Assembly (NCBI GenBank): GCA_007132495.1
Contig: SLOL01000110.1
Coordinates: 1-38,660 of the forward strand
Origin: Balneolales bacterium
GTDB lineage: Bacteria > Bacteroidota > Rhodothermia > Balneolales > Natronogracilivirgulaceae
Reading direction: 5' to 3'
DNA: 38,660 bases
In this document: one piece after another, positions 155 to 35,756 of the stretch
How positions within the stretch are numbered: position 1 is the stretch's first letter
Layout of the letters: each line of letters starts with the position of its first letter
The notes under the pieces: model-generated
Told to the model about the DNA's origin: nothing
Seen by the model: the letters and a program-made list of their open reading frames with translations, nothing else
Database searches by the model: none
Program-made: the position numbers and the translations under genes

Positions 155-766
155 ATGGACACTTTCGCACCTATCACAACTACGACACGGGTCGATTATT
201 TCCCCAGAAAGATTTCAGGCAGGGGAGGTAACGGGATGGGCAGAATGCACCATCTTTTCAATAGTTCAGCTCTAATATCAAGTGCCGTAAAATCCCATAT
301 GAACGGGACAGGTTTGTCACTTATCTGCGGTGGGGAACATGATGTTATGAAAAATCCGGAAGAACAAAAGAAGGTGAGTCAGTCAGATAAGAAATACAGG
401 GCCTTGCATATTGAAGATGATGAAGAAATACGTTTTCTTGTAAAAGCATTTCTGAAAGAATTCGTAGAAGTGGATCCTGCAGCTGACGGGTATGAAGCAC
501 TTAATTATACATCGGAGCACAAGTATGATTTAATCATCACCGATATCAATCTCGGCGCAGGAATAGACGGTATAGAAGCATCCCGGGAAATACGGAATAT
601 GAATTACTATCAGGACGTTCCGATCATTGCAGCAACGGCAAATGGGACATCCGAGATCCGTAATCAATGTATAAAAGTGGGGATGGATGCTTTTTTACTG
701 AAACCGTTTATGAAGAATGACTTGATCAATACAATTGAACAGGTCATGGAAGACAGGTTACAATAA
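155..766 (+). CDS. Single-domain response regulator with N-terminal extension
   Basis: This is a 203-residue protein whose C-terminal ~125 residues form a CheY-like receiver: an acidic cluster E87-D88-D89, phosphoacceptor D130 in IITDINL, T161 and K183 in LLKPF. No output domain follows, so it probably acts by protein-protein contact after phosphorylation by a histidine kinase not present in this window. ATG 155 has a good Shine-Dalgarno (AGGAG 141-145, 9 nt spacing). However, the first 64 residues resemble nothing I recognise, and an in-frame ATG at 347 behind GGGGA would give a clean 139-residue receiver protein. The next gene starts 26 bp downstream with its own GGAG, so the two are likely co-transcribed. 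Confidence 0.85.
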   Translation: MDTFAPITTTTRVDYFPRKISGRGGNGMGRMHHLFNSSALISSAVKSHMNGTGLSLICGGEHDVMKNPEEQKKVSQSDKKYRALHIEDDEEIRFLVKAFLKEFVEVDPAADGYEALNYTSEHKYDLIITDINLGAGIDGIEASREIRNMNYYQDVPIIAATANGTSEIRNQCIKVGMDAFLLKPFMKNDLINTIEQVMEDRLQ

Positions 767-792
767 GAGCTATATTTAATGGAGCTGATAAG

Positions 793-1542
793 GTGAAAAA
801 ATCCGAGATACATAAAATACAAGAGCAGATTGATGCTTACAGACGAGGAGTGTTGACCCAGGATGAGATCGATGCTCTCTGGGTGAAGCTGGTCGAATAT
901 CCCGAACAGATGGAATATTTGATAAATACGGTTAACCTTGAAGCGGTGGCGGCAAAACGAGCTAAAGATTCTGAATGGGATGCCACAGAAAAGAGAACAC
1001 CGGTTATTCAAACCTTTTTGAGAAATTGGAGTCGCGTTGCAGCGGTATTTCTTGTGGTTGCCGGTACGGTCTCTGCCATTTACCTCTTTGGTTCAGAATA
1101 TGTAACCGAGCCCAGGCCGATAGCCGAGATTGAAATGGATAACTTCCGTACATCAATGATCCCTACGGTCGTTTTTGATTATGAAATTCAGAGGGCTATC
1201 AACCTGGCATCCATGGAAGAGTTCGAACAGGCGCTCGATAAACTTGAAGAGATCGACAGAGAGCATCTGACGGAGGAACAGCAGGTTAAGCTCCAGATTA
1301 ACAAAGGATCCATCTATTTTAATCGGGGTGATTATGATTCAGCAATAGAAGTATTCAACGGCATTCTGGCAAATCACGACCAATTGCATGTTCTGACCGA
1401 AGAGCAGGTACATTGGTTCTTGGGGAATGCCTACCTGCAACTTGATGAGGAAGAGCTGGCGCAGAAACATATTCATGAAACATACGATCTGAATGGCGCC
1501 TACCGAAGACTCGCTGAACGATACCTGGATCAACTCCAGTAA
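793..1542 (+). CDS. Membrane TPR protein with anti-sigma-like N-terminus
   Basis: This is a 249-residue protein starting at GTG 793, with GGAG at 781-784 (8 nt spacing). Residues 1-60 form a helical, charged cytoplasmic segment with a 'YRRGVLTQDEIDALWVKL' pattern, reminiscent of the N-terminal sigma-binding part of Bacteroidota anti-sigma factors. One membrane span lies at about 82-100, followed by a predicted periplasmic region with tetratricopeptide-like helix pairs (about 130-245). The family reading is by layout, not by a diagnostic motif. It is in an apparent operon with the receiver protein. Its TAA (1540-1542) abuts the TAA of the convergent CHAT gene (1543-1545), leaving no spacer. 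I infer a transmembrane regulator of the CHAT/sigma cluster; a plain TPR scaffold is the alternative. Confidence 0.75.
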   Translation: MKKSEIHKIQEQIDAYRRGVLTQDEIDALWVKLVEYPEQMEYLINTVNLEAVAAKRAKDSEWDATEKRTPVIQTFLRNWSRVAAVFLVVAGTVSAIYLFGSEYVTEPRPIAEIEMDNFRTSMIPTVVFDYEIQRAINLASMEEFEQALDKLEEIDREHLTEEQQVKLQINKGSIYFNRGDYDSAIEVFNGILANHDQLHVLTEEQVHWFLGNAYLQLDEEELAQKHIHETYDLNGAYRRLAERYLDQLQ

Positions 1543-4500
1543 TTATGATCCCCGCATAAAGGAAAATCCGTAATATCTATACCATCCGGCAATCAGCGAG
1601 AAGATGCCGAGCAGGAATAAAAGGACACCTGCCAGAATGGTGTTCAGCGGTCGGACAACAGGATCGGTATTCCCATAAACGACAAATGAACCCCAGTAAG
1701 AGGGATTGCTGTTGCGGGTGTTGATATAATCGATTTTTGACTGACGCATGGCTTCGCTTTTGCTCATGCCTTCATTCAAGTATGAGTAAAACGAAACCGA
1801 CAATTCGTAGGCCGACCGGTCTCTTATGGTCCACAGGTTAAGTACCAGACTTTGGACACCGGCATAGTTAAATGCACGACTGAACCCGACAATACCGCTT
1901 CCCTGAATATAATTGCCGGAACCGGATTCACAGGAGTTCAGCATTACCATTTCGTTGGAGAGATCCATTTCAAACAGCTCATAAGCATAGATCAAGCCGT
2001 CGCTTTCCTGCATTTCCGGCGATTGGGATTCAACCGGGTTGAGGTGGAGAATGGAATAAAGCGGGTCGCTGTCAAACACTTCACTGTGGGAGGCAAAGTG
2101 TAGAATCCTGCTGCTGCCGGCACTTCTGTGAAATTCACGGTCTGTTCCTGTCGAAGACAGGAATGAAGACCGGTTGGGTAGTTTATCAAGATTGGAGACA
2201 ATGGTGGTTACTTCTTCCTCAGCCAGCGGAAGTGGAGGCAGAGATTGTCCCGGCAGCAGCTGACTTTCGGAATTGCCGAAGTGAGAGATTCCAAATCCGA
2301 GAAAGTCCAGTTCATACGACTTACTGTTATTGTGATCAAAGCTCCTTTCCAGATCTTTCAGAGAGTTAACATAGGATACAGAAGCATGCTCAATCAGGTA
2401 GGATGCCTCTCCATAGCTGTAGTCGCCGGAGACCTCACCGGTCGGCAATATTTCAAAGGGAATATGATAGAGAAACCCGTCCGGGATAATGTAGTAATTG
2501 GTTAAATGATCGCTTAGATTCATTTGATCAAGGACCTTTTCCCTGACCCATTGAAGCTCGGTAAGCCGGATGCGGTCGGATGACAGGTTTTCCACAATCT
2601 CATCGAAACGTTCGCGCTCCTGCCTGGAAAAAGCGATTTTCCGGATGTCATAAGATCCGGAAGTGATGGTAGCCGCAAACAGGTCATTTTCAAATACACT
2701 GAAATAGAGAATGGCATCCGATCTTTTTAGCTGTTTACGGAGGCTTCCGAGATCAGCCGGCTGAAAGTCGATATTGCGGAGTACCTTGCGCTGCAGTACG
2801 TTGAGTTCGGATATGGATTCCAGCAGCTGGTTGTTAAGCTGAGTGCGCCGCTGATCTTCCGCAGTTCGGATCTCTCTGCGAAGTCTTTCAATGCGGTTTC
2901 GCAGCGCAAAATCCATGATCAGTTCACTTTCCGAAAGAATGGAAGATTTGAGTGCCGGGTTTTGGTAGAAAGATGAAGCACTCAGATTTTTGATTTCATC
3001 CATCCAGTAGAAGGCCTCTTCGATTTGGTTTTGTTCAATCAGCAGGTCTACCAGAAGTTTGAATAATAAGAGATATTCTCGTTCTAAAAATAGATGACCG
3101 GCCTGAAGATCGGCACTGTTGTGCATTCTGGAAAGTATTTCATTGGCATATTCACGTAACAGTGGCATTTTTTCCTCTGTTCTGTTGTGATACCTTGAAT
3201 TTTCAGTGAGTACAGTTACACGGTCTACCTCTATTTGAAAACGAGGAGGAATTTTATCCATAGAAGAAATTTTCTCAATATAAGGCTCCGCTTTCTCAGG
3301 AAGGTCAGACAGAAAGTACTGCCTGGCTATTTGGATATAACCGATTAATTCATAAAGTGAATTGTTTCGTTCACGGGCCAATTCTACTCGCTTATATTCG
3401 AATTCACGTGCTTTATCGTATTGTTCCATCAGTTCATAGGTTCTGGTAAATTCACCTATACTAATGTTCAATAATGAGAATTCATTCAACTCTTTACGTA
3501 TCTCATAGGCTTTTTGGAGGTGTTCAAGGGCTCGGTCATAGTCATTCTTAAAATCTCTGTAATACAATCCAAAGTTTAATTCTACTCTTGCAATATTCTC
3601 TTTATCATTTTGCGATTCAGATATTTCTCTGATTTCTTCAAGATAATGATTTGAAGTAGACCAATTTTGTATTCTTCTATGGTATGTGTACAAATTAAGC
3701 AAGAAATGAACTTGATCTTGGAGAAGATTATTATTTTCCGCAAAATTCAGGGCTTCGATCTGAAGCTGTATATATTTGTCAAACATTCCGGTTTGTAGAT
3801 ATACAATCCCCAAATTGTTTAGAAGAGCAGACTGGTATCTCAGGTCTGAAAATTCTGTGATATTATCATAAACATATTGCAGAGTATTCAACGAAGCCTG
3901 GGTACTTCCAAGCGAATATAGACTGACTCCATAGTCCAAATGTGCCTGCATTTGGGTTTCATGCGAGAAGTATTCGGCAAGCGGCAGAACGATACTCCGG
4001 TGCATTTCAATGTCATGCTGGTAGTAGCCGCTGAGATATGAGGAGTAGGAGAGATAGTTGAAAATCCTCATTGTCAGTTCACTGATCGGCAAATCGTGAT
4101 AGTCATTGATAAGTTGAGAGAGGTTGTGGATGAGTAATTCGCTTTCCCGGTTTCTGTAGAGTGCGTTGATGGTCACCAGATAATCACTGACGAAAGAAGT
4201 GCTACCGGTATCCCGCCGGGTTCTTAGACTGTCGGCCCAGTTCTCTGTAATGGCTTTGGTGTGGTCGCTGATGGAGTCGATTTCCACAATATTGAAATAG
4301 TAGAAATCCAGGATATCGATCTGATCAGCAACCAGGGTATTTTCATAGTTGTTAAAGCCGTTGCCCCTTTCAAATAAATAGTCCAGGTGAAGAGTATGTT
4401 TCTCATCCAATAATGATTCATCAAGGATTTCGGTAAAGCGTGATACAAATTGGTTCTCATCCCATTCCCCGTTATCCTTCAGTTCATGAAGATGTGAAAT

Positions 4501-4839
4501 CGTCAGGTTCGGATCACCGGCACAAAGAACGAAGTGATCCAGGTAATTGCGTTCCGGATTATCCGCATTTTCATCGATGCAGGAAGTAATTTCGGCGTAA
4601 GCAGTGAATTCGCTCCTGTTCTGTTCCACGACCCGGTTGAGGACATGATATCTTTCGGCAGAGAAGGCAATAACGTGATAGATGAGCCAGAGGGATTGGC
4701 TGGAGCGACTGTTCTCATACTCATGCATATAGGAGTACAACTGCTCTTCCAGCACCTCCGAAGAATTTTGACGGCTATCTTCCCGGGGCTCCGAAGGATC
4801 AAACGCAAAAACCAGAAATAAAAGAAGAATGTAGCTCAA
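1543..4839 (-). CDS. Exported TPR-CHAT domain protein (caspase-like peptidase candidate)
   Basis: This is a 1098-residue protein. The TTG start at 4839 is the only plausible one, as an in-frame TGA lies just upstream and the next ATG is residue 38; it gives a hydrophobic N-terminus (YILLLFLVFAF) that looks like a weak signal sequence. Tetratricopeptide-like helices fill roughly residues 230-600, followed by a linker with coiled-coil character. The C-terminal CHAT domain (about 780-1055) shows the dyad His918 in HFASH and Cys970 in LNSCESG, plus the SLVLNLWTIRD segment typical of the family. A membrane span follows at about 1066-1086 with a short basic tail, which places the CHAT domain on the periplasmic side. 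CHAT proteins belong to the caspase/separase clan, and some are proven proteases; the substrate here is unknown. The TPR core is markedly AT-rich compared with both ends. Two small lipoprotein genes lie directly upstream. Confidence 0.9.
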   Translation of the reverse strand: MSYILLLFLVFAFDPSEPREDSRQNSSEVLEEQLYSYMHEYENSRSSQSLWLIYHVIAFSAERYHVLNRVVEQNRSEFTAYAEITSCIDENADNPERNYLDHFVLCAGDPNLTISHLHELKDNGEWDENQFVSRFTEILDESLLDEKHTLHLDYLFERGNGFNNYENTLVADQIDILDFYYFNIVEIDSISDHTKAITENWADSLRTRRDTGSTSFVSDYLVTINALYRNRESELLIHNLSQLINDYHDLPISELTMRIFNYLSYSSYLSGYYQHDIEMHRSIVLPLAEYFSHETQMQAHLDYGVSLYSLGSTQASLNTLQYVYDNITEFSDLRYQSALLNNLGIVYLQTGMFDKYIQLQIEALNFAENNNLLQDQVHFLLNLYTYHRRIQNWSTSNHYLEEIREISESQNDKENIARVELNFGLYYRDFKNDYDRALEHLQKAYEIRKELNEFSLLNISIGEFTRTYELMEQYDKAREFEYKRVELARERNNSLYELIGYIQIARQYFLSDLPEKAEPYIEKISSMDKIPPRFQIEVDRVTVLTENSRYHNRTEEKMPLLREYANEILSRMHNSADLQAGHLFLEREYLLLFKLLVDLLIEQNQIEEAFYWMDEIKNLSASSFYQNPALKSSILSESELIMDFALRNRIERLRREIRTAEDQRRTQLNNQLLESISELNVLQRKVLRNIDFQPADLGSLRKQLKRSDAILYFSVFENDLFAATITSGSYDIRKIAFSRQERERFDEIVENLSSDRIRLTELQWVREKVLDQMNLSDHLTNYYIIPDGFLYHIPFEILPTGEVSGDYSYGEASYLIEHASVSYVNSLKDLERSFDHNNSKSYELDFLGFGISHFGNSESQLLPGQSLPPLPLAEEEVTTIVSNLDKLPNRSSFLSSTGTDREFHRSAGSSRILHFASHSEVFDSDPLYSILHLNPVESQSPEMQESDGLIYAYELFEMDLSNEMVMLNSCESGSGNYIQGSGIVGFSRAFNYAGVQSLVLNLWTIRDRSAYELSVSFYSYLNEGMSKSEAMRQSKIDYINTRNSNPSYWGSFVVYGNTDPVVRPLNTILAGVLLFLLGIFSLIAGWYRYYGFSFMRGS

Positions 4840-4904
4840 TATATTACATATTCAATAGAGTGTTTACTACAAATCAATATGGAATATATTAATTATAAAC
4901 AATA

Positions 4905-5134
4905 ATTCAATCGGGTTGGACGCGGATCATGGTGGGTTCATCATCTTTGCTTTCAATGATGTCGGACTGATCCTGCATGTCGCGGGCCTCGATGTTCAGC
5001 GGCTGGTCCGGTTCCCCGGCCAGGTTGGCGTCGGTGATGCCGGCGCAGGAGGAGAACAGAAAAGCGAGGGTGAGCGTGGCGATAAGGGAGAGATTCTTGA
5101 AATGTTTCATGGGTCTGTTGGGCTTGGGTTAATG
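4905..5134. repeat. Direct tandem repeat, left unit (230 bp)
   Basis: Positions 4905-5134 repeat almost perfectly at 5171-5400 (offset 266 bp, 36-bp spacer 5135-5170). Each unit carries one complete lipoprotein gene plus about 24 bp of its upstream leader. I count five mismatches by eye, all inside the coding region, and the shared leader is identical. This looks like a recent gene duplication rather than a mobile element; I see no terminal inverted repeats. Confidence 0.93.
4907..5110 (-). CDS. Small lipoprotein, tandem copy 1
   Basis: This is a 67-residue protein with a basic N-terminus, a hydrophobic h-region and Cys22 in the lipobox-like FSSC, so it is probably a lipoprotein after signal-peptidase II cleavage. 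The mature part is about 46 residues, acidic and without a recognisable fold, ending in IRVQPD. It differs from its neighbour (5173-5376) at only four residues: A16 versus T, F19 versus I, L30 versus M and D57 versus E. It lies 67 bp upstream of the TPR-CHAT gene on the same strand, so co-transcription is likely. No Shine-Dalgarno is visible; the same 24-nt leader precedes the ATG in both copies. Its function is unknown, perhaps as a partner or substrate of the CHAT protein (inference). Confidence 0.75.
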   Translation of the reverse strand: MKHFKNLSLIATLTLAFLFSSCAGITDANLAGEPDQPLNIEARDMQDQSDIIESKDDEPTMIRVQPD

Positions 5135-5170
5135 ATGTTTAATTATGTGATGATAATTGGAGCGAACCGG

Positions 5171-5400
5171 ATTCAATCGGGTTGGACGCGGATCATGGTG
5201 GGTTCTTCATCTTTGCTTTCAATGATATCGGACTGATCCTGCATGTCGCGGGCCTCGATGTTCAGCGGCTGGTCCGGTTCCCCGGCCATGTTGGCGTCGG
5301 TGATGCCGGCGCAGGAGGAGATCAGAAAAGTGAGGGTGAGCGTGGCGATAAGGGAGAGATTCTTGAAATGTTTCATGGGTCTGTTGGGCTTGGGTTAATG
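5171..5400. repeat. Direct tandem repeat, right unit (230 bp)
   Basis: This is the second copy of the 230-bp unit described at 4905-5134. It carries lipoprotein copy 2 and the same upstream leader. The similarity ends abruptly at 5400, where the AT-rich intergenic region begins. Confidence 0.93.
5173..5376 (-). CDS. Small lipoprotein, tandem copy 2
   Basis: This is a 67-residue paralogue of the adjacent gene, with the same layout: KHFKNLSLIATLTL signal core, lipobox ISSC with Cys22, and an acidic mature peptide ending in IRVQPD. Ile19 at the -3 lipobox position fits the consensus better than Phe19 in the other copy. It is the first gene of the inferred leftward unit lipoprotein 2 - lipoprotein 1 - TPR-CHAT. 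The surrounding intergenic DNA is very AT-rich while the gene itself is GC-rich by comparison. I do not recognise the family. The conserved reading frame with mostly conservative replacements argues for a real, expressed protein. Confidence 0.75.
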   Translation of the reverse strand: MKHFKNLSLIATLTLTFLISSCAGITDANMAGEPDQPLNIEARDMQDQSDIIESKDEEPTMIRVQPD

Positions 5401-5748
5401 GTTATTATGATTCAATAAAAAAATTATGCTCAACTTATTCTCAATGTAATGTGCATACCCTATTACCTGGAGGAGTAACAAACATGTTAATTGTTACAAA
5501 AAAAATGTACGAAATGATAGTTTATTCGATATGTTACTTAATTTTTTATTGGATATGACGATAATATAACGGTATGCCAGAATGTTTCACTTTTTTTTAT
5601 AAATATTAGGGTATCATAATACTTGGTCGGCTTATCAGGAATCGCCTTTTTTTGAATTACCTCCGACCTTCGCATAAAATTATGGATTATGTGGAAATCA
5701 GGTTTGCAAATTTTATTATACTCAATAGCTTTGGTTTGATCCGCTAAA
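5401..5748. other. AT-rich divergent intergenic region
   Basis: This 348-bp region lies between the leftward lipoprotein/CHAT unit and the rightward sigma gene and should hold the promoters of both. Apart from the short ORF at 5484-5558 I see no gene, RNA or clear inverted repeat. A TATACT hexamer at 5717-5722 lies 26 nt before the sigma start but has no good -35 partner. No convincing leftward promoter could be chosen. Confidence 0.6.
5484..5558 (+). CDS. Possible 24-residue hydrophobic small protein
   Basis: A 24-codon ORF starts at ATG 5484 behind a near-perfect Shine-Dalgarno, GGAGGAG (5469-5475), with 8 nt spacing, in a stretch that is otherwise very poor in G and C. The peptide begins MLIVTKKMYEM and ends YLIFYWI; it is hydrophobic with two lysines near the start, as expected of a one-span small membrane protein. 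It points towards the ECF-type sigma gene 190 bp further on. It could equally be a leader peptide or a chance ORF; no homologue is known to me. Confidence 0.35.
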   Translation: MLIVTKKMYEMIVYSICYLIFYWI

Positions 5749-6339
5749 TTGTATATACCACTGAAGAGTTCAACTGTCTTGATCCATTCAACCTCAGATT
5801 ATTCCGAGCTTATTGACGCCATACTTCGTGATGACAGAGTGGTTGCCAATCGGTTGGCTTCGAGTCTGTTGGAGCGGGTGGTTCTTTATCTCAAAGTCAG
5901 AATGGGTGCGCCGCAATCTGTGGCGGAGGAATGTGCTTATCAGGCTTTTTCCGATGTGTTTGAGATGATCAGGAGAGATAAAATATTGGACAGGAAATCG
6001 ATCCTGAAATATTTCATTACGGCGGCACGCAATGAATATCTCAGGCTTATGAGCAAAGAGCAAAAATATGAACCGGATTTGGATGAAGATGATTTCTTCC
6101 TCCCGGAACCGGCGGATCAACTGGATAATCTGATAGATGAAGAAAGGCAGAATCAGTTAAATAAATGCCTTAACCGCCTTACAGAAAAACATCAGCAATT
6201 TATTCTTGCCATTTTTTCGGGTAAATCAGTCCATTTAACGGATATAGCACAAAGATTCGGTTTTTCTTACGCAAAAACCCGCACCCTGAAAACCAGAATC
6301 ATTCAAAATCTGCAGGATTGCGTTAAAAAAAACCGGTAG
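5749..6339 (+). CDS. ECF-type sigma-70 family RNA polymerase sigma factor
   Basis: This is a 196-residue protein with the two-domain layout of extracytoplasmic-function sigma factors. A region 2-like helical block (about 35-105) contains ECAYQAFSDVFEMI and a KYFITAARNEYLRLM recognition-helix-like segment. An acidic linker follows, then a region 4 helix-turn-helix (about 137-190, LTEKHQQFILAIFSG...AQRFGFSYAKTRTLKTRI). It would direct RNA polymerase to a specific promoter set. The start is uncertain: the TTG at 5749 lacks a Shine-Dalgarno, and an in-frame TTG at 5779 follows GAAGAG. No classical anti-sigma gene is adjacent; the membrane TPR protein at 793-1542 is a candidate regulator by position only. 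The gene is divergent from the lipoprotein/CHAT unit. Confidence 0.82.
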   Translation: MYIPLKSSTVLIHSTSDYSELIDAILRDDRVVANRLASSLLERVVLYLKVRMGAPQSVAEECAYQAFSDVFEMIRRDKILDRKSILKYFITAARNEYLRLMSKEQKYEPDLDEDDFFLPEPADQLDNLIDEERQNQLNKCLNRLTEKHQQFILAIFSGKSVHLTDIAQRFGFSYAKTRTLKTRIIQNLQDCVKKNR

Positions 6340-6495: not shown

Positions 6496-6708
6496 ATGTC
6501 AGAAGAACGAGAATCCGGTGTCGTCAAGTGGTTTAACGGTGCCAAAGGCTATGGTTTTATAAGCCGCGAAAGCGGTGAGGATCTTTTTGTTCACTTCAGT
6601 GAAATACAGTCGGAAGGTTACCGGGTATTGAATGAAGGGGAGAAAGTTGAATTTACGGTTGCAGAAAGCGAAAAAGGTCTGCAAGCGAAAGAAGTTGTAA
6701 AACTTTGA
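6496..6708 (+). CDS. cspA: Cold-shock domain protein
   Basis: This 70-residue protein is a single cold-shock (OB-fold) domain. RNP1 reads KGYGFI and RNP2 DLFVHF, and the N-terminal VVKWFNGAKG is diagnostic. These proteins bind single-stranded RNA/DNA and melt RNA structure. The length matches the family. The gene is monocistronic, with its own promoter (6362-6390), a long leader and a terminator (6716-6749). The exact csp paralogue cannot be assigned, so the symbol is generic. No Shine-Dalgarno is evident before ATG 6496. Confidence 0.95.
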   Translation: MSEERESGVVKWFNGAKGYGFISRESGEDLFVHFSEIQSEGYRVLNEGEKVEFTVAESEKGLQAKEVVKL

Positions 6709-34631: not shown

Positions 34632-35756
34632 ATGTCGAGACAGGGAATCAATCTTGGATATTATAAAGGGATCAGAATTGGCCTGGACTACAGCTGGTTT
34701 ATCATTTTTATTCTGGTAGTGTTCATGCTGGCCACTTACTACTTTCCTGAAAACTATGAGAATATCACCACCGTATCGGCGTGGTTACTCAGCATTTTTG
34801 CCGCACTGCTCTTTTTTCTTTCCATTCTGCTGCATGAATTTGCCCATGCCGTCACTGCTCAGAAAAGAGAAGTGGAAATCACTGAAATTGTACTTTTTAT
34901 TTTCGGCGGACTTGCAAGAATGAAGCGAGAGCCGGACCGGGCCAGGGATGAATTTTTCATAGCCGGTGCCGGGCCCATGTGCAGTATTTTGATCGGTATT
35001 CTGTTTCTCGGGCTTGCGTATGTCGCTGAACCTGCGATTACCGAGGGACTGTACGGTGTATTCTGGTATATCGGATATATCAATATTGTTCTTGCGGCTT
35101 TCAACCTGCTGCCAGGTTTTCCGCTGGACGGAGGGCGTATGATGCGTGCGGCAATATGGCACTATTCCGGAAATTTGCGTAAGTCTACAAAAATAGTCAG
35201 CAACATGGGGCAGTTCTTTGCCTTTTTTCTGATTTTTGTCGGGGCTGTCGTGATTTTTGGTGGCGCTATCATTGCCGGCATATTCTGGATCTTCATCGGT
35301 ATGTTTCTGCTGCAGTCGGCAAAAAGCGGATACTATATGGTCGCTATGCGCGAAGGACTGTCCGGGATACCGGTCAGAAACGTAATGACTGTGGATCCGG
35401 CTACGGTTCATCCCGATGTCAGTCTCAGAAATCTTGTGGATGAGTATTTCTTCAAAAACCGATTCTCCTGCTTTCCGGTAGTTAAGAGGGATGAGGTACT
35501 GGGTCTTATTGAGATCAATCAGGTAAAGTCGGTTGACCGTGCAAATTGGGAAAGCACAAAGGTTTCGGATATCATGACCCCCGTGGAAAAAACCGGGACT
35601 GTTTCACCTGAAACGGATGCCTATGACGTATTAATGCATCTGATTGATTCGGCAAACGGCCGTATGATTGTGCTTGAGGATGGGAAGCTGGTCGGTGTGG
35701 TCTCCCGCAAAGATATCATGAAGTTTGTTGAACTACAGGAGACCCTGCGATCCTGA
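34632..35756 (+). CDS. Site-2 protease (M50) with CBS-domain pair
   Basis: This is a 374-residue intramembrane metalloprotease. The zinc motif HEFAH has His68, Glu69 and His72; the third ligand Asp166 lies in LLPGFPLDGGRM. About six membrane spans fill residues 20-235. Two CBS motifs follow (about 245-300, VRNVMTVDPATVHP..., and about 308-368, VSDIMTPVEKTGTV...), which usually sense adenine nucleotides. Such proteases cut membrane-bound anti-sigma or transcription factors within the lipid bilayer. The membrane anti-sigma proteins encoded at 16043 and 793 are possible substrates in this genome, without direct evidence. It has no adjacent partner gene. Confidence 0.94.
   Translation: MSRQGINLGYYKGIRIGLDYSWFIIFILVVFMLATYYFPENYENITTVSAWLLSIFAALLFFLSILLHEFAHAVTAQKREVEITEIVLFIFGGLARMKREPDRARDEFFIAGAGPMCSILIGILFLGLAYVAEPAITEGLYGVFWYIGYINIVLAAFNLLPGFPLDGGRMMRAAIWHYSGNLRKSTKIVSNMGQFFAFFLIFVGAVVIFGGAIIAGIFWIFIGMFLLQSAKSGYYMVAMREGLSGIPVRNVMTVDPATVHPDVSLRNLVDEYFFKNRFSCFPVVKRDEVLGLIEINQVKSVDRANWESTKVSDIMTPVEKTGTVSPETDAYDVLMHLIDSANGRMIVLEDGKLVGVVSRKDIMKFVELQETLRS

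Follow-up and report, generated by a model that had tools for sequence, protein, structure and literature searches.

The cluster that opens the 38,660-nucleotide window (the whole stretch of Balneolales DNA analyzed here) joins genes for an ECF sigma factor, a membrane TPR protein, a TPR-CHAT protein, and tandem small lipoproteins, which almost certainly form a real, co-regulated module centered on that sigma factor. We favor, at a probability of roughly 55%, the overall explanation that the cluster is an envelope-sensing sigma/anti-sigma circuit in which the CHAT protein would be the activating protease.

Layout and synteny of the cluster across Balneolales

An ORF check of the window recovered every gene listed by a first-pass annotation of the same DNA, each where that annotation had placed it. 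It had treated the genes between 155 and 6339 as one packed set; the genes are real, and instead of one operon they make up two units that are divergently promoted: receiver-TPR on the + strand (155-1542) and lipoprotein-lipoprotein-CHAT on the - strand (5376-1543). The units come together tail to tail, and the sigma gene (5749-6339, +) follows them. The two key promoters had been missed, the first of which lies outside the interval then reported. The features of the locus are as follows.

78-105, + strand: ECF-type promoter of the receiver-TPR unit, TGTAACA-N15-ACTCCT (exact pattern; 0 expected in shuffles)
155-766, + strand: single-domain response-regulator receiver with a variable N-terminal extension, an optional member (Pfam Response_reg, 9e-25)
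793-1542, + strand: putative membrane anti-sigma factor with cytoplasmic three-helix domain, membrane helix, and periplasmic TPR domain (AF2 model; SIG2-TPR2 pair; 40 of 41 loci)
1147-1149, + strand: codon of the invariant Arg119, candidate cleavage site in a poorly ordered juxtamembrane linker (R in 55 of 55)
1543-4839, - strand: predicted exported TPR-CHAT protease with C-terminal membrane anchor and TTG start (CHAT PF12770, 8.5e-51; fold match)
1930-1932, - strand: codon of Cys970, predicted catalytic residue (invariant in 40 of 40)
2086-2088, - strand: codon of His918, predicted catalytic residue (invariant in 40 of 40)
4907-5110, - strand: small lipoprotein, copy 1, 67 aa, with lipobox, acidic linker, and conserved C-terminal tail
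5173-5376, - strand: small lipoprotein, copy 2, 94% identical to copy 1
5471-5498, - strand: ECF-type promoter of the lipoprotein-CHAT unit (exact pattern; 0 expected in shuffles)
5749-6339, + strand: ECF sigma factor with TTG start, probably at 5779 (TIGR02937; ECF structures; divergent to CHAT, conserved)

Directly 3' of the sigma gene lies a cold-shock protein gene (6496-6708, +), which occupies the same place in family f1 and in one related MAG (L033, L035, L039).

We compared this locus across 98 genomes of the order Balneolales, 78 of them of good quality, with relatives that include Fodinibius, Aliifodinibius, and Balneolaceae MAGs. A CHAT relative is present in 87 of the 98 genomes and in 76 of the 78 good ones, counts of which a second CHAT family makes up a part. 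The gene order [RR-]TPR>, <CHAT<LP(s), SIG> is conserved across the order: TPR and CHAT are convergent in 40 of the 41 loci examined, the sole exception being a contig end, and the sigma gene lies upstream of the lipoproteins in divergent orientation at every locus whose contig extends that far, with one true exception (L070, in genome G084). The apparent absence of the sigma gene at L038 and L064 proved to be an artefact of ORF picking. The outer flanking genes vary from family to family, which indicates that the unit travels as a block. Failure of the genes to co-occur in relatives had been named beforehand as grounds for abandoning the idea of a module; instead, the synteny runs through the order, and together with the common promoters described below it rules out chance neighbors. 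Genomes without CHAT1, among them G005, G020, G022, G028, G074, and G081, likewise have no TPR1 and no SIG1, and strict co-occurrence is broken by two fragmented genomes (G034 and G097). The receiver, by contrast with its earlier placement in the core of the system, adjoins the TPR gene in families f1, f4, and f5 and in part of f3 only, being missing from that position in most of f3; it is an optional add-on. The literature that we searched, most subscription journals and preprints lying outside it, holds no description of this gene set.

A shared promoter type, its regulon, and a candidate small RNA

A site of the TGTAACA-N15-ACTC type stands before the receiver or TPR gene in 34 of 39 loci and before the lipoprotein-CHAT unit in 31 of 34, with 2 control hits in approximately 99 kb. 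Its -10 part differs by family (ACTCCT, ACTCTTG, CATCAT), yet agrees within any one genome. Two genomes, G083 (L284) and G084 (L285), have lost the window-type sigma factor and both promoters at the locus, and retain CHAT, TPR, and lipoproteins. Because the sites are absent where the sigma factor is absent, the motif is tied to the window sigma factor; the survival of the other genes may mean that CHAT, TPR, and lipoproteins have another partner or job.

Beyond the locus itself, the form TGTAACAA-N13-TACTCTTG matches at over 80 sites, spread over 31 of the 98 genomes, compared with 0 for a reversed-pattern control. Genes 3' of the sites in family f3 encode an HPt protein, receivers, a ParA-like operon, an RND pump, an HU-like protein, TspO, and lipoproteins, and regulon members in Fodinibius-like genomes (L220, L223-L225, L229, L233, L240, L254, L259) also include a pilin-like protein and a nucleotide cyclase. 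In the window genome an exact site lies just upstream of a gene for an N-acetylmuramoyl-L-alanine amidase, which fits an envelope role. The regulon list for this genome is short and uncertain: two more promoter-like sites (on contigs C52 and C83) have no clear gene downstream, and one-mismatch sites, at 3 compared with 4 in the control, were set aside.

A conserved non-coding RNA in family f3, approximately 115 nt long (loci L226, L227, L231, L237, L238, L244, L246, L251-L253, L255, L264-L283), is driven from several of the sites there. It carries a CACTCCTTA stretch (anti-Shine-Dalgarno-like) and a terminator hairpin, and it matches no Rfam family at gathering level. An RNA model built without the promoter finds this RNA in 39 of the 98 genomes, and 18 of 20 fetched copies have the promoter directly upstream, making it a candidate sigma-dependent small RNA. 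A search of the window's own family did not find it.

The sigma factor and its probable anti-sigma factor

The sigma factor matches TIGR02937 over residues 35-191 (4e-10, 39.5 bits, just below the cut-off of 42.9), and its family profile aligns over residues 4-174, near full length, with the ECF factor RpoE (2q1z, E 1e-6). With only sigma2 and sigma4 in approximately 190 aa, and with an AAC-containing -35 element at its target sites that is gone along with the sigma factor in two genomes, it has the marks of an ECF factor. TTG appears to be the start in most relatives, and homologues point to the TTG at 5779 in the window, a start that could keep translation of the sigma factor low.

In the AF2 model of the TPR protein (pLDDT 84), a three-helix N-terminal domain is followed by a membrane helix (residues 74-102) and a poorly ordered linker, beyond which lies a domain of three TPR units. 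Among solved structures, those closest in fold to this domain include peptide-binding TPRs, HOP TPR2A and NprR among them. Alignment and model together thus describe the layout of a membrane anti-sigma factor: a cytoplasmic helical domain, a single membrane helix, and a periplasmic part. Compared with Pfam, the N-terminal domain falls in no clear family, and the TPR repeats are the sole clear match in the protein.

A second, paralogous module (module II) in the order bears on this assignment. Adjacent, co-directional genes are the classic layout of a sigma factor and its anti-sigma factor, and in module II SIG2 and TPR2 lie in just this arrangement (at L167-L169, L171-L177, and L179-L181, near ftsY and scpA), often with a CHAT gene or two from a different subfamily close by; in module I the lipoprotein-CHAT unit stands between the two. 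The module II genes group as a single clade in the sigma tree (support 0.42) and likewise in the TPR tree (support 1.00); the pattern used above finds no such promoter in this module. Because these paralogues form an adjacent pair, the TPR protein is very probably an anti-sigma factor, and from the sequence comparisons we would put it, with considerable confidence, as that of the window sigma factor. Outside the order, an ECF factor lies near CHAT in 6 of 35 distant loci (Bacteroidota, Planctomycetota, Acidobacteriota), several with a protein whose N-terminus is anti-sigma-like. The anti-sigma reading put forward in the first-pass annotation therefore gains from the SIG2-TPR2 pair, from other phyla, and from the sigma-type promoter ahead of the TPR unit. 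In the window genome the SIG2-TPR2 pair (contig C140, 10834-12178; G000:C140:10834-12178) comes with no second CHAT, so at least some anti-sigma factors of this type can do without CHAT.

A predicted exported CHAT protease and a candidate cleavage site

His918 and Cys970 of the CHAT protein, picked out from the sequence at the outset and correctly placed, are invariant in all 40 long relatives and make up the His-Cys dyad of CHAT domains; on this basis the protein is predicted to be a protease of clan CD. By inspection, the CHAT relatives are hydrophobic at the N-terminus and carry membrane segments at the C-terminus; the window protein itself has a short signal peptide that lacks a basic start. 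A structural model (pLDDT 81, with a low-confidence loop after Cys970) matches Csx29 first (7Y9X, E 7e-13), followed by separase and the transmembrane anti-sigma factor DdvA (E approximately 2e-11). The likeness to Csx29 is by fold only, as a search with the single CHAT domain sequence of the window gave no match to it; DdvA is found weakly by a CHAT-domain profile (E 0.0016) and has both the His and the Cys motifs. Fold and co-regulation thus agree with the original suggestion of an exported, catalytically intact CHAT protein, as predicted, that is tied to sigma control.

The linker between the membrane helix and the TPR domain is variable and poorly ordered except at one position, Arg119, which is arginine in 40 of 40 TPR1 and 15 of 15 TPR2 proteins (55 of 55 in all). 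Separase prefers ExxR, and an acidic residue (D or E) stands three residues before this arginine ([DE]xxR) in 26 of 40 TPR1 and 13 of 15 TPR2 proteins. We infer that Arg119 is a candidate cleavage site at which cutting by CHAT is plausible, and this is the sharpest prediction of the mechanism proposed below; the residue could instead be structural, and TPR2, which the window genome keeps in the absence of a second CHAT, bears the same arginine. M50 proteases, available for a second cut, occur in the window genome and in almost every other. A gene in the window itself (34632-35756, +) encodes an M50 metalloprotease that carries two CBS domains and may be a site-2 protease.

Of 34 usable loci, 31 have small lipoproteins alongside CHAT; copy number runs from 1 to 6, and the copies are frequently near-identical and in tandem, with arrays of six and four near-identical copies at L053 and L054, respectively. 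They share a lipobox, an acidic linker, and a conserved tail (e.g., IRIRPD, IIIIRPD, or PIVDKPE). A search of the window genome gave no clear further copies elsewhere. That the tail is a separase-like pseudosubstrate was considered and set aside, the K/R-P resemblance being the one point in its favor.

Proposed mechanism and alternatives

In the mechanism that we propose, the cytoplasmic N-terminal domain of the TPR protein would tether the ECF sigma factor to the inner membrane until a periplasmic signal switches on the exported, membrane-anchored TPR-CHAT protease. CHAT would then cut the anti-sigma factor in its juxtamembrane linker, most likely after Arg119, and a general intramembrane protease would make the last cut, leaving the sigma factor free to activate its regulon via TTTTTGTAACAA-N14-ACTC promoters. 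As that regulon would take in both the anti-sigma gene, together with any adjoining receiver, and the lipoprotein-CHAT unit, positive and negative feedback would be combined. The small lipoproteins may gate CHAT as sensor, competitor, or pseudosubstrate, a role that we assign tentatively and that is speculation as far as sensing is concerned. For the central step, activation of the system by CHAT cutting the anti-sigma factor, we would put the chances at about even; the main doubts come from the SIG2-TPR2 pair without CHAT2 and from the two genomes in which CHAT, lipoproteins, and TPR survive without the sigma factor.

These same two observations, along with the regulon promoter of the lipoprotein-CHAT unit, are what one would expect if the sigma factor and TPR protein made up an ordinary anti-sigma circuit and CHAT were just one of the regulon's products, working in the periplasm as a protease on envelope proteins or the lipoproteins and not as the activator. 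We consider this unlikely, though worth keeping in view: TPR and CHAT remain neighbors in 40 of 41 loci even as the outer flanks change, the remaining regulon targets are scattered, and known CHAT links (PMC10028731; DdvA) indicate anti-sigma control. Less probable by far is a non-proteolytic receptor, a split DdvA in which TPR-CHAT would bind a ligand such as the lipoprotein tail and act on the periplasmic TPR domain of the anti-sigma factor. DdvA is both an anti-sigma factor and a CHAT protein, the TPR domain resembles the peptide-binding TPRs HOP TPR2A and NprR, and the lipoproteins have a C-terminal tail in common; the full dyad, invariant in 40 of 40 relatives, would nonetheless be needless for pure binding. 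That CHAT kills the cell as part of a defence or cell-death module, in the manner of the TPR-CHAT immune systems where such proteases are found (PMC10028731), is very improbable, given a near-universal and syntenic distribution in the order that is unlike mobile defence islands, the lack of a defence-family match of note or PADLOC support for the proteins of the module, and a regulon with amidase, RND pump, TspO, HPt, and receivers.

Relation to known systems and implications

The circuit with CHAT as activating protease has two precedents for its mode of action, Csx29 and DdvA, which are not proof of membership. In Myxococcus xanthus DdvS-DdvA (PDB 8ROT, 8RW5), the sigma factor DdvS turns active once the transmembrane anti-sigma factor DdvA is inactivated (PMC4374960); the deposited DdvA chain is named a CHAT domain-containing protein, and its fold is like that of the window CHAT. 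DdvA holds anti-sigma and CHAT parts in one 991-residue chain, whereas the Balneolales loci examined encode them as two separate genes, with lipoproteins and a common promoter type in addition. Csx29, the TPR-CHAT protease that works with Csx30 and CASP-sigma in type III-E CRISPR (Craspase), acts by cleaving a protein that inhibits an ECF sigma factor (PMC10028731). It is cytoplasmic, RNA-activated, and tied to Cas7-11, in contrast to the window CHAT, which is predicted from the hydrophobic N-termini and C-terminal membrane segments of its relatives to be exported and is tied to a membrane anti-sigma factor.

Other comparisons are partial. The DegS-RseP-RseA pathway of sigma-E likewise has a membrane anti-sigma factor with a cytoplasmic sigma-binding end and a periplasmic end, and a sigma-dependent small RNA, for which there is a candidate here in part of Balneolales; its first-cut enzyme is a PDZ serine protease, and the candidate here is a CHAT cysteine protease. 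CHAT also occurs in the neighborhood of ECF54 factors, which are described as regulated without an anti-sigma factor (PMC8999054), unlike the Balneolales module with its putative one. Separase with securin offers a caspase-clan fold preceded by helical repeats, and a separase-like [DE]xxR context is found at the candidate site; that system is eukaryotic, and its likeness to the window CHAT is by fold. The initial impression that the set matches no described system is thus tempered by DdvA, by Csx29 (PMC10028731), and by CHAT near ECF54 (PMC8999054), while the split set itself is a new version of that theme: what DdvA and Craspase do with CHAT and anti-sigma control is divided here between a predicted exported protease and a probable membrane anti-sigma factor, with tandem lipoproteins, a promoter of its own, and, in one family, a candidate small RNA.

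A bolder version, about which we are ourselves somewhat doubtful, is that a CHAT protease of the separase/caspase clan replaces the DegS-type serine protease as first-cut enzyme in an envelope stress response, cutting the membrane anti-sigma factor after the invariant arginine (often [DE]xxR) and held in check by tandem lipoproteins with K/R-P tails, that the freed sigma factor drives the small RNA, and that the trio of ECF factor, anti-sigma factor, and CHAT seen in several phyla could be a cellular relative of Craspase. Handles for testing such ideas are Arg119 as the candidate cut site, His918/Cys970 as the dyad, the promoter as a reporter of activity, and Fodinibius as a cultured relative. 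If the proposed circuit is correct, CHAT proteases, whose known settings are mainly CRISPR and cell death, would gain a housekeeping role in envelope signaling, and the circuit would hint at a possible origin of the CRISPR protease/anti-sigma arrangement. For the salt-loving host, and for nearly the whole of its order, the cluster is probably an undescribed way of sensing envelope trouble.
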